Positions 5,298-49,356 of a stretch of 64,000 nucleotides of DNA are shown one piece after another. Both the position numbers and the translations under genes were made by a program. Origin of the DNA: Candidatus Puniceispirillum marinum IMCC1322 (GTDB lineage Bacteria; Pseudomonadota; Alphaproteobacteria; Puniceispirillales; Puniceispirillaceae); contig NC_014010.1 of assembly GCF_000024465.1 (NCBI RefSeq), forward strand, positions 1,302,001-1,366,000. The letters are read 5' to 3'. The notes below the pieces were generated by a model, which was not told the origin of the DNA, did not search any database, and saw only the letters and a list, made by a program, of their open reading frames with translations. Every line of letters begins with the position of its first letter. The first letter of the stretch is position 1.

Positions 5298-6176
5298 ATG
5301 TTTTATTTTGGCTCCTCACCTTTTACCCTTGCACCAATTTTGAATGTGCCAATTTTGAAGGTGGGCTCAATCAGGTTCGCCTGCCTATTTGTAGTCGCGG
5401 GTCTACTCGCCCCTTTTGGCGCATTTGCCACCGGAACGCAGATTGATCTTCGCCACGAAGTACAATGGGGAAATGTGAATGTTGGTGAAGTCGAGACCAG
5501 TTGGCTCTTTGACCAGACGACGTTCGAGATGGTTGGTAAATCGAGGACAGTTGGCATCTCAGAAAAGTTGCGAAAATATCGAGGTAACAGCACAGCTAAA
5601 GGCCACATACATGACAACCGTCACATGCCCGTACAAATCGACATTAATGGGATTTACAAAGGTATGGAAAGGAATGCCACTGCAATCTGGAACCCCAAAA
5701 ATGGCCGCATACGTACCGTCAGAACACCATCACTGAATCTTAAAAAGGTTCATCCTTTGGATGATAAAGTCATCCAAGGATCGATAGATCCCTATACTGC
5801 CATGCTGCGTGCGCTTCATACGATAAAACAGACAGGATCATGTAACAGTAGCCACAATATCTATGACGGCCTTAGGACTGCCGAATTGACGCTACACGAT
5901 CTTGAAGATGATCTCAGGCCTAATTTCCTGACCGCAGATAGGCCAGACGCCTATGATGGTGCCGTGATAGCGTGCGGCTTGACCAGCAAGCCGACAGGCG
6001 GGCATCAGCTAAAATCGCGCTGGAACAAGAAAAAGCGTAACATTGATGACACAATCATTTTCATTGCCGAAATTGAACCCGACATCTTTCTGCCAGTACG
6101 TATCGAGATCAAAACATTCCTTGGCACAATCACCACAAGGCTTGTCATGACCAGCTTATCAATAAAGAATAGCTGA
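5298..6176 (+). CDS. secreted DUF3108-like protein
   Basis: As annotated the protein is 292 residues. A hydrophobic signal sequence (FACLFVVAGLLAPFGAFA) is followed by a beta-rich mature part with features seen in DUF3108-type periplasmic proteins: an ING-Y-K-G segment near one third, a QGSIDPYTAML motif, and a C-terminal FLPVRIEIKT...TRLVMTSL. Function of that family is unclear. The start is ambiguous. ATG at 5298 is used here, but TTG at 5355 (M-K-V-G-S-I-R) would give a cleaner signal peptide, and longer readings run back through repeat A. A near-tandem duplication CCAATTTTGAA(T/G)GTG lies at 5334-5363. No operon partner. Confidence 0.6.
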   Translation: MFYFGSSPFTLAPILNVPILKVGSIRFACLFVVAGLLAPFGAFATGTQIDLRHEVQWGNVNVGEVETSWLFDQTTFEMVGKSRTVGISEKLRKYRGNSTAKGHIHDNRHMPVQIDINGIYKGMERNATAIWNPKNGRIRTVRTPSLNLKKVHPLDDKVIQGSIDPYTAMLRALHTIKQTGSCNSSHNIYDGLRTAELTLHDLEDDLRPNFLTADRPDAYDGAVIACGLTSKPTGGHQLKSRWNKKKRNIDDTIIFIAEIEPDIFLPVRIEIKTFLGTITTRLVMTSLSIKNS

Positions 6177-6380
6177 TGATATTGCTGACCAAATTTGGCT
6201 GGCATCTCCATGACAAGCCAAAGATAAAAGGTGCCCCAATGTTGCGGCATGATGGTGACCCTAACAAAAGGTCAGATTATCAGGGGTGAAAACACTCACG
6301 GTACCTAGGCCAGCGACTATTGGGCCTTTTGCCGCCCCGATATGGCCTAATTTTTGTTGATGTCGCACTTCATAATAGCC

Positions 6381-47369: not shown

Positions 47370-47511
47370 TTTGACCTCTTTCTTCATAAAGGTGACCTGC
47401 ATATCCCAAACCCCTCATATCACGAAGCGAGGGTCGGTCAGTCAGGCGATAAGCCGGCCGGGCATGCCCTGTTATTTCAGGCCCGGACGCGACAAATAAC
47501 GCGAAGCGCCG

Positions 47512-47540: not shown

Positions 47541-47580
47541 CCCAAGAAACAACCGAATTATCGTTAACGCTAATTTAATC

Positions 47581-47595
47581 ACTATAAATTATAGT
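47581..47595. promoter_or_regulatory. AT-rich palindrome before the immunity-like gene
   Basis: ACTATAA-A-TTATAGT is a perfect 15-bp palindrome located about 34 bp before the start of the small plus-strand gene, overlapping where its -10 (TATAAA) would be. It is a candidate operator or core promoter for the islet. Confidence 0.4.
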
Positions 47596-47628
47596 TTCTA
47601 AAATCAAAGAATTATTTTGGAGTTTCAA

Positions 47629-47820
47629 TTGGATGAGTCACATTTTACAGGATTACTACTCACTTTAGCTTTTATCTATTTTTTGCCATCGATAATTGGC
47701 ATTACCAGAGGAGTTCGTAACCTAGGGTCAATTATAGTCATTAATCTTTTCCTTGGCTGGTCACTGATCGGATGGGTATTCGCTCTTGCAATGGCTTTTG
47801 CTACTGTCGATAAAAATTAA
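47629..47820 (+). CDS. superinfection-immunity-like small membrane protein, 63 aa
   Basis: This small protein has two membrane segments: FTGLLLTLAFIYFLPSIIG (about residues 6-24) and LGSIIVINLFLGWSLIGWVF (about 32-51). The motif L-P-S-I-I-G-x-x-R-G...IVINLFLGWSLIGWVFALAMA matches the Imm_superinfect family (T4 Imm-like), also widespread as small bacterial membrane proteins often without a proven role in phage exclusion. The probable start is TTG at 47629 with GGAG 6 nt upstream; a TTG at 47617 is possible. It lies opposite in strand to the surrounding translation genes and next to the NYN gene. Confidence 0.65.
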   Translation: MDESHFTGLLLTLAFIYFLPSIIGITRGVRNLGSIIVINLFLGWSLIGWVFALAMAFATVDKN

Positions 47821-47852
47821 CGAGAATCACAAATTACAGCTAATCACGAAGG

Positions 47853-48656
47853 CTATGATAGTGGAAGTTTTTGTTCCAAACTCAATGCAGTTTGAAATTC
47901 CTGAAAAGAAATTTGCATTGACCAGTCCGTAACTTCATTTAGTTTTCGGGCTCCGCCAGGTAATAGTCCACCATCTATTTTTTGAAAACTGACATTGATT
48001 ACATGTTTACCAAGGTTTTTCACTTGCTGAACCGCAGGAACATAGTCTTGGTCGCCAGAAACTATGATTGCTGTATCGTATATTGGAGCTTTCAACACCA
48101 TGCCCAAAGATAAATTGACATCAACAGTTTTTTCTTTTCCATATTGTCTTTTTAGAAGGTTATATTGAATTTCACCTGAACGGCAGAACTCAATTGCGTT
48201 ATTGTCTTTAGCGATCAAGTCTTGTTTATGTCTGATACTTTTATGCGTACTGTCCACGCTACCTTTTAAACCAATCAAATCAGAACTTAGCTTATCCAAC
48301 TTTGTTTCTTTTTCGTCAGCGTTAGAACAAGCTTGCAATGCTTCAACGAATGATTTTTTTGTTTTATTCAAGTATGTCTCGTTTTTTGCAAACCAATTAA
48401 TTTTTTCAGATTGTTTCATATTTTGGTGGATTAGAGGAGGGTAAAATCCAACTTTATCAATAACATACCAATAGGTTCTGATGCGCTTAACTCTGTAGTC
48501 AGGCAATGCCTTAATAGCAATGTTATCAAAGAACTGATCCCAGTTGGTATCAATCGGCATATATTCTTTATGATTGAAAAATTTTGGTGAAAACAAATTT
48601 TTGATTGTAAATCTAAGATTTTCTCCATCAACGAAAATACAAACTCTGTTTTCCAT
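47853..48656 (-). CDS. NYN-domain (PIN-like) putative ribonuclease
   Basis: A 267-residue protein with a LabA/limkain-like NYN domain. The N-terminal strand NRVCIFVDGENLRFTIKNLF carries the first acidic residue. KTVDVNLSLGMVLKAPIYD supplies the conserved K-x-V-D...L, and DTAIIVSGDQDYVPAVQQVKNLGK carries the S-G-D-x-D-(Y/F) motif, completing the acidic cluster expected of a metal-dependent nuclease. An insertion of about 70 charged residues (about 95-165) lies between. The gene is AT-rich compared with infC and rplT and sits between infC and rpmI, normally adjacent genes. ATG at 48656 follows AGAGAT; an in-frame GTG at 48683 is possible. RNA cleavage and a defence role are inference from the family and position. 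Confidence 0.75.
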   Translation of the reverse strand: MENRVCIFVDGENLRFTIKNLFSPKFFNHKEYMPIDTNWDQFFDNIAIKALPDYRVKRIRTYWYVIDKVGFYPPLIHQNMKQSEKINWFAKNETYLNKTKKSFVEALQACSNADEKETKLDKLSSDLIGLKGSVDSTHKSIRHKQDLIAKDNNAIEFCRSGEIQYNLLKRQYGKEKTVDVNLSLGMVLKAPIYDTAIIVSGDQDYVPAVQQVKNLGKHVINVSFQKIDGGLLPGGARKLNEVTDWSMQISFQEFQTALSLEQKLPLS

Positions 48657-48682
48657 GACAACATCTCTGAATTTATTATTCA

Positions 48683-48729
48683 CAAATAAAAAAGGTGAGC
48701 CCCTATTTATAAAAACAAGAACTCACCTT
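48683..48729 (-). terminator. terminator downstream of infC
   Basis: On the minus strand AAGGTGAG (complement of 48722-48729) pairs with CTCACCTT (complement of 48692-48699) around a 22-nt loop and is followed by TTTTATTTG. It lies about 90 nt past the infC stop and just before the NYN gene, so thrS-infC transcripts probably end here. The loop is long for an intrinsic terminator. Confidence 0.55.
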
Positions 48730-48819
48730 ACAAATTTGCAGAGAGGTTAAAAACCTAACCGCTTATAAATTTATTCAAATATGAATGTAAAACTCTAAAT
48801 GTCAACCCTTCTATTATGT

Positions 48820-49356
48820 TTATTTCGGGGCGATGACCATAATCATCTGGCGGCCTTCCATCTTGGGATGCGATTCAACCTTTGCCACATCTTCGGTTTC
48901 ATCACGCACGCGTTTGAGCACATTAGCGCCTAATTCCTGATGCGCCATTTCACGGCCACGGAAGCGCAAGGTAACCTTTACCTTGTCACCGGAACCCAGA
49001 AACTTGTTCACAGCCCGCATTTTGACCTGATAATCATGCTCATCGATATTCGGCCGGAGTTTGATTTCTTTAACTTCAATTATTTTCTGTTTTTTACGGG
49101 TCTCGTTAGCACGCTTCTGCGCTTCATATTTATATTTGCCATAATCGAGAATTTTACATACGGGAGGATCAACATTTGGTTGAACCTCGACCAGATCAAG
49201 ACCAAAATCTTCGGCCTTATTGATGGCATCACGGGTATCGAGAACCCCTAGCTGACCCCCATCGGGATCAATGCAGCGTACTTGTGGTGCTCTGATAGCG
49301 CCATTCACGCGCGGGCCATCTTGTGCGGGCGGCACATTACTGTGTGGACGTACTAT
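48820..49356 (-). CDS. infC: translation initiation factor IF-3, probable AUA start
   Basis: IF-3 binds the 30S subunit and checks start codons. With the proposed start it is 178 residues. The N-domain contains [20 protein letters not shown] and [19 protein letters not shown], a Lys-rich linker [18 protein letters not shown], and C-domain [17 protein letters not shown]. The first ATG/GTG-type codon in frame is GTG at 49335. However, AGGAG ends 8 nt before an in-frame ATA at 49356, which directly follows an in-frame TAG two bases past the RBS and restores the typical alphaproteobacterial R-P-x-x-N-x-P-P N-terminus. IF-3 genes commonly use AUU/AUC/AUA starts for autoregulation. Confidence 0.9.

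Follow-up and report, generated by a model that had tools for sequence, protein, structure and literature searches.

At the infC-rpmI junction of Candidatus Puniceispirillum marinum IMCC1322, a member of the SAR116 clade (PMC3368413), lies an insert that we tentatively read as a horizontally acquired cassette, in which a small structured RNA is combined with a NYN-type ribonuclease between two transcription units and which would work in a type III toxin-antitoxin-like manner. The DNA analysed here is a stretch of 64,000 nucleotides from this genome, referred to as the window, and its features are listed in Table 1.

AT-rich DNA separates infC from rpmI

On the minus strand of the window, the genes follow each other in the order thrS, infC, NYN gene, rpmI, rplT, pheS and pheT, and a small immunity open reading frame (ORF) is located on the plus strand. 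With the exception of infC, the names of the core genes come from our reading and from matches in relatives. Between infC and rpmI lies a stretch of ~1.27 kb of AT-rich DNA, with a GC content of 0.32-0.38 in 500-base windows, compared to ~0.52 on the rpmI side and 0.42-0.51 for infC and the end of thrS. Pfam matches and GC content confirm the insert as described in an earlier note on this DNA, namely a NYN gene and a phage-type immunity ORF on opposite strands of AT-rich DNA that separates infC and rpmI. While the insert and its two genes stand, of the boundary elements named in that note the rpmI promoter is not new and the terminator on the infC side most likely belongs to the NYN transcript, as detailed below. 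The infC gene probably starts with an AUA codon at 49356-49354, and GTG 49335 sits 7 codons downstream. This codon and an upstream GGAG-type site are present in the window and in all 14 relatives compared with it. Rare start codons of infC are known in other bacteria.

Table 1. Features of the infC-rpmI junction in the window
Feature	Position	Strand	Basis and remarks
rpmI leader, CCGGGC...GCCCGG	47453..47493	-	conserved in an alignment of the window with 20 relatives (L048 incomplete); outside the insert
rpmI promoter-like site, TTGATT-17-TATAAA	47512..47540	-	read in the sequence; outside the insert
Two-helix Imm_superinfect-like membrane protein	47617..47820	+	PF14373; probable start TTG 47629
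NYN-domain RNase-like protein, 267 aa	47853..48656	-	Pfam PF01936, AF2 model, alignment
Leader hairpin HP2, 17 bp stem then U-run, terminator-like	48692..48729	-	scan and folding
Leader hairpin HP1, 25 nt	48738..48762	-	distance downstream of the -10: 15 nt (window), 14 nt (G001)
NYN promoter-like site, TTGACA-16-CATATT	48778..48805	-	consensus match, just after the infC stop
infC (IF3)	48820..49356	-	IF3_N and IF3_C domains

The junction is empty in nearly all relatives

We searched 60 relatives, own genome aside, found an infC match in 54 of them and fetched all 54 infC regions. Both infC and rpmI were in view in 53 of these; the stretch of the 54th (L077) had no rpmI match. The junction was empty in 52 of the 53 relatives, with 90-282 bases between the matched gene ends. 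The remaining one, G001, belongs to another genus of the same family and has ~1.17 kb at the junction with a NYN gene 57% identical to that of the window. The usual state of the junction in relatives is empty, and where it is filled, it holds the same NYN gene. The suggested check for different accessory genes at this site accordingly came out negative, and a variable defence hotspot was ruled out, because 52 of 53 relatives are empty and the last one carries a NYN homologue. Remnants of the insert in empty junctions were limited to matches from the rpmI-promoter side of the G001 stretch to L047, L048 and L052, and other matches between insert and empty junctions were short words of 10-18 bases, taken for chance. 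A tree of five core genes with 28 of the 55 available tips placed the window, g8 and g2 in one clade (support 0.99), in which the inner order has a support of 0.49 and two of the eight tips have the insert. Either one gain with several losses or a second transfer may account for this.

The NYN protein has a predicted ribonuclease fold

The NYN gene probably starts at ATG 48656. Its product matched PF01936 with 46.9 bits (cut-off 24.2), and the L100 homologue reached 58.8 bits. An AlphaFold2 model calculated from seven sequences (pLDDT 84, pTM 0.81) was most similar to 2qip (Z 16.0, rmsd 3.5, 157 aligned) and to the NYN domain of MARF1 (Z 14.4, rmsd 2.7, 146 aligned), followed by structures with a Z of 8.0 and below. 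The residues D10, E12, D179, D202 and D204 are invariant in 8/8 homologues, and we take them to be the catalytic ones. The model also contains an insertion of ~100 residues, most of it helical. As modelled, the protein is of the PIN/NYN fold with conserved acidic residues, and ribonuclease activity is predicted.

The insert does not split a compact operon

In all ten insert-free relatives examined, a TTGATT- or TTGCCA-type site with TATAA was found at the matching distance from rpmI. The idea that a new promoter keeps the essential genes expressed is therefore wrong in detail, since the rpmI promoter is common to the insert-free relatives. In the conserved rpmI leader, both partners of a pair are changed together in some rows for three of the six predicted pairs (2, 6 and 5 rows), and positions 47453 to 47493 gave no Rfam match up to E 1. 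This element is probably a ribosomal-protein leader, which we assume is perhaps of the L20 autoregulatory type. Because insert-free relatives already have both the rpmI promoter and the leader, the insert lies between two transcription units. In G001, the stop codon of the NYN gene (L049 7027-7029) falls inside the -35 hexamer of the rpmI promoter.

A two-hairpin leader candidate precedes the NYN gene in the window and in G001

G001 has a TTGACT-16-TATATT site at the place that matches the NYN promoter-like site of the window. The scans of the window returned numbers at the shuffled expectation, both for promoter-like (8 versus 6.9) and terminator-like elements (3 versus 3.0), as did the promoter scan of G001, and the reading as promoter and leader therefore rests on the agreement of the two loci. 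In the window, the promoter-like site is followed by 15 nt, HP1 with 25 nt, 8 nt, HP2 with 38 nt, 35 nt and the ATG; the same order of elements in G001 has lengths of 14, 24, 7, 30 and 27. The folding z of the window leader is -7.2. Among 58 upstream regions compared, which include six NYN leaders, this one and that of G001 show the strongest structure. Control leaders of other NYN-type genes (6 of the 9 loci L004-L012; L004 and L012 dropped) ranged from -2.6 to 1.8.

When the stems of both loci were lined up by hand in a register chosen by the analyst, 10 of 22 pairs were changed on both sides with pairing kept, 1 was changed on one side and 11 were identical. MAFFT alignments of the two leaders mis-set the stems, and for this reason they are not represented by a covariance model. 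The similarity of the two leaders from the -10 to the ATG was reached by 0/1000 shuffles and by 10/500 when 105 nt were taken, showing that the value depends on the cut. For the similarity to the leader of L098, the corresponding numbers were 23/500 (window) and 5/500 (G001), and for L097 127/500 and 114/500, respectively.

The hairpin at 48729-48692, previously regarded as a terminator on the infC side, is downstream of the promoter-like site that follows the infC stop, and HP2 is for this reason most likely part of the NYN transcript, within the gene's own two-hairpin leader. The alternative that HP2 is an infC terminator, which was kept when the NYN gene landed, with HP1 as a chance structure, is very unlikely. 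It would account for a hairpin and U-run after infC on the same strand, and two of ten insert-free relatives (L048, L069) have five T in a row in the 120 bases that follow infC. However, a scan of the insert-free L043 detected no terminator in the junction on the infC strand, and no hairpin with a T-run was seen by eye in the other nine insert-free junctions. Moreover, both carriers have the promoter-like site after infC but ahead of the hairpins, and both keep HP1 and HP2 with changed pairs.

A structured RNA family is found beside distant NYN homologues

Altogether, the NYN family comprises eight homologues, of which three (Binatia) are close to each other. Those at 40-42% are from MAGs of Gammaproteobacteria (L097), Binatia (L098-L100) and Pirellulales (L101), and L111 is from the same family as L101. 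The phyla concerned are Pseudomonadota, Ca. Binatota and Planctomycetota.

In L097-L100, two hairpins with UGCG loops stand ahead of the NYN ATG, namely HP1 with 8 bp and, after a spacer of 13 nt, HP2 with 9 bp. They are followed by a U-rich stretch, which is weakest in L097. A covariance model (R1) was built from these four plus-strand RNAs and run on 35 sources with 400 kb. It matched the minus strand of L111 at 3567-3510 (43.8 bits, E 6e-9) and of L101 at 4874-4819 (38.8 bits, E 1.4e-7). Both RNAs are located upstream of the NYN gene on the opposite strand and have their own U-run after HP2. Of the other seven hits, four were echoes of the training hairpins on the reverse strand (E 0.013-0.04), and three had an E of at least 0.4. 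On 43 sources with 357 kb, eight of them shared with the 400-kb search, the best match was 12.3 bits, and nothing was found beside nine other NYN-type genes (L004-L012). An R1-type RNA is accordingly present upstream of the NYN gene in six of eight loci, with the nearest ends within ~150 nt; these loci belong to three phyla and include both orientations of the RNA.

In an alignment of the six RNAs, 102/102 pair cells are standard and 7 of 17 pairs are changed on both sides, values which were each reached by 0/500 shuffles; for further pair types, 23/500 shuffles came up to the observed number. Sliding the partner by 1-3 columns reduced the pairing to 32-60%. The alignment was fitted to R1 and four of its six rows built R1, which leaves the two opposite-strand matches as independent evidence. 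The folding z of the 110 nt upstream of the NYN gene was -1.1 to -2.2 in L097-L100 and 0.2 on the plus strand of L101. Rfam contained nothing at gathering score for the window region and the RNA loci searched (L099 aside), apart from Acido-Lenti-1 far off in L101, and the exact HP1 pattern was absent from the viral contigs.

The L101 cassette lies between dnaN- and gyrB-like genes and the L111 cassette before a dapB-like gene, all named by reading of the translations. Since the two sites differ, RNA and NYN gene appear to move together, and the RNA resembles a small-RNA gene of its own that accompanies the RNase. The earlier note does not mention this RNA. In the surroundings of the L101 cassette, matches to the PADLOC candidate PDC-S13 (5856-6194 and 9399-10265) flank the gyrB-like gene, the second with a Bro-N domain. 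A restriction-like gene with a GmrSD C-terminal domain is found at 261-1916 of L097, ~3 kb from the NYN cassette.

The orientation of the RNA bears on a further explanation, in which the hairpins are a cis-acting leader that controls NYN expression, by attenuation or by autoregulatory cleavage, without any trans-acting RNA. In the window, G001 and L097-L100 the RNA is on the NYN strand directly ahead of the ATG, HP2 is terminator-like in the window and L098-L100, and NYN enzymes are RNases that could cut their own leader. The terminator-like element between RNA and NYN gene is weaker in L097 and lacks a U-run in G001, and in L101 and L111 the RNA is divergent. A pure cis leader is argued against by the R1-type RNAs on the opposite strand in L101 and L111, where the same RNA family has its own U-run; this argument reaches the window by analogy only. 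Overall, we consider the cis-acting leader unlikely.

With filters off, R1 did not find the window leader, and the G001 leader scored 2.9 bits, which is noise. As this leader of the same plan does not match R1, the link of the window to the R1-type RNA is only positional, and the SAR116 leader RNA may be unrelated to it. HP1 and HP2 share a loop only in the R1-type RNAs. Judged from sequence, a structured RNA is linked to and conserved with the protein gene for the family, and for the window by plan only. That the NYN family has an RNA partner is highly probable; for the IMCC1322 locus, we regard a partner as somewhat probable.

The NYN family is patchy and low in GC

Searches with an E of 1e-20 or below (A2) detected the NYN protein in 2/61 genomes of the family, 1/398 of the phylum sample and 3/148 of the Binatia class; further samples gave 1/246, 1/297, 1/9 and 2/119. 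Beyond the own genome and the loci already found, these searches added one new member, L110. Each carrier genome has a single NYN-family match. A looser search (E of 0.001 or below) produced matches in 11/61 genomes, with whole-length matches only in the window and G001; the other nine were rejected as family members because only ~54-72 core residues matched. No full NYN relative was found in phages, plasmids or viral contigs, for which the viral-contig scans rest on short exact patterns, and the sole hits of this kind were weak and limited to the NYN core, on two small plasmids. The GC content of the NYN gene is below its surroundings in the six loci computed (window, G001, L097, L098, L101 and L110). 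Patchy presence, low NYN GC in six loci and the same family in distant phyla support the view of the earlier note that the islet is an acquired accessory element.

These data also bear on the idea of an accessory RNA-processing enzyme with a substrate or cofactor RNA, which would be neither toxin nor defence. NYN enzymes process RNA elsewhere, as has been proposed for the CRISPR-associated NYN (PMC11346440), and the single match per carrier genome would fit. However, a patchy occurrence at two sites together with a low GC content suits a selfish or defence cassette better than a housekeeping enzyme, and we judge this explanation to be quite unlikely.

The small immunity ORF appears to be a separate passenger

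The 67-codon immunity ORF matched PF14373 with 54.8 bits (cut-off 27.9) and PHROG 1039 'immunity to superinfection' with an E of 2.4e-18. Similar ORFs are present in 717 phage records at <60% identity. GGAG precedes the start candidate TTG 47629. Because the ORF is the only such gene found in the IMCC1322 genome and was not found in stretches of 8-11 kb around the other seven NYN genes, we treated it as a separate passenger, and the proposed pairing with the NYN gene is not supported.

It is very unlikely that the NYN protein and the superinfection-immunity protein act together as an anti-phage pair, making the insert a defence islet. The PADLOC candidate HEC-09 matched all seven NYN members scanned together, and the eighth alone, over the C-terminal ~50 residues only; a whole-profile match was not obtained, and the best stretch covers positions 99-147 of the 203 in the profile. 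This partial match and the resemblance of the small ORF to phage superinfection proteins speak for a pair, and so may the GmrSD-type gene near the L097 cassette and a SoFic-like gene in L101. Against it stand the single occurrence of the ORF, which was not found around the other seven NYN genes, and the junction, which is not a hotspot. A role of the NYN cassette itself in phage defence is plausible only.

A possible mode of action

The best reading of the cassette is, at slightly less than even confidence, a type III toxin-antitoxin-like pair of RNase and RNA. Transcription from the promoter would in most cases stop at HP2 and yield a short RNA with two hairpins, and the RNase would be produced by occasional read-through, or from a separate divergent promoter in the Pirellulales-type loci. 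The abundant RNA would then bind the RNase and keep it inactive. If transcription in the host comes to a halt, as it does in phage infection, the RNA would decay first and the RNase would be freed. Several parts of this scheme we infer, namely the production of the RNA, its binding to the RNase and the resulting inhibition, the toxicity of the free RNase, the functional equivalence of the window leader to the RNA found elsewhere, and the link to phages. An RNA antitoxin is the simplest reading, to be held with reserve, and a cis leader and a substrate or cofactor RNA are its main rivals. The tandem direct repeats typical of type III antitoxins appear to be absent, as no direct repeat of at least 14 bases was found within the RNA in five regions scanned (L099 and L100 left out) and none of at least 12 bases within HP1-HP2 of the window.

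More tentatively still, the cassette may represent an undescribed module, in which a trans-acting RNA of two hairpins with UGCG loops keeps a NYN/PIN-fold ribonuclease in check and which is mobile among Gammaproteobacteria, Binatia and Planctomycetota with the RNA in either orientation, the SAR116 RNA being replaced or strongly diverged. Among the titles and abstract starts listed from the open-access literature, with subscription papers mostly outside, we recognised no NYN RNase paired with an RNA antitoxin. Passages of an IMCC1322 paper (PMC11813361) and of PMC7180214 contained nothing on a NYN-RNA pair, and those of PMC12262181 nothing on the locus.

If true, RNA-antitoxin systems would gain a new toxin fold, and NYN/PIN, which is familiar from mRNA decay and CRISPR-linked RNA trimming, would be added to the small number of folds whose toxins are controlled by an RNA. 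A seemingly lone inserted gene would then be part of a protein-RNA pair that is invisible to protein-based annotation. The RNA family provides a small testable system of one protein and one ~60 nt RNA, together with a search model for further members.

Comparison with known systems

The toxins of ToxIN, CptIN and TenpIN share one fold. According to PMC12373285, these type III systems carry the antitoxin RNA in front of the toxin gene and have a terminator in between, a layout that the NYN cassette resembles where HP2 is terminator-like, as in the window and L098-L100. They differ in that their antitoxins are tandem repeats, whereas the NYN RNA has two hairpins without direct repeats and the protein has the NYN fold. 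The same source describes AbiF/RCd22 of C. difficile, which is composed of a promoter, a structured RNA of ~100-130 nt, a terminator and the toxin gene, with the RNA neutralising the protein (PMC12373285). The layout and the two RNA motifs are alike. In contrast, AbiF is an Abi_2/AbiD/F protein and not of the NYN fold, its RNA is ahead of the gene while the NYN RNA is also found on the opposite strand, and inhibition is only proposed for NYN.

In AvcID, a noncoding RNA keeps the enzyme inactive and is lost when a phage stops transcription, which is the working model proposed here for the NYN cassette. The AvcID toxin, however, is a deoxycytidylate deaminase, and no terminator is predicted between RNA and gene (PMC10511110). 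On the protein side, MARF1 and VPA0982 (2qip) share the fold of the NYN protein, and the CRISPR-associated NYN, which is proposed in PMC11346440 to trim crRNA intermediates, has an RNase domain of the same name. From all three, the NYN protein differs by its mostly helical insertion of ~100 residues and by the linked small RNA.
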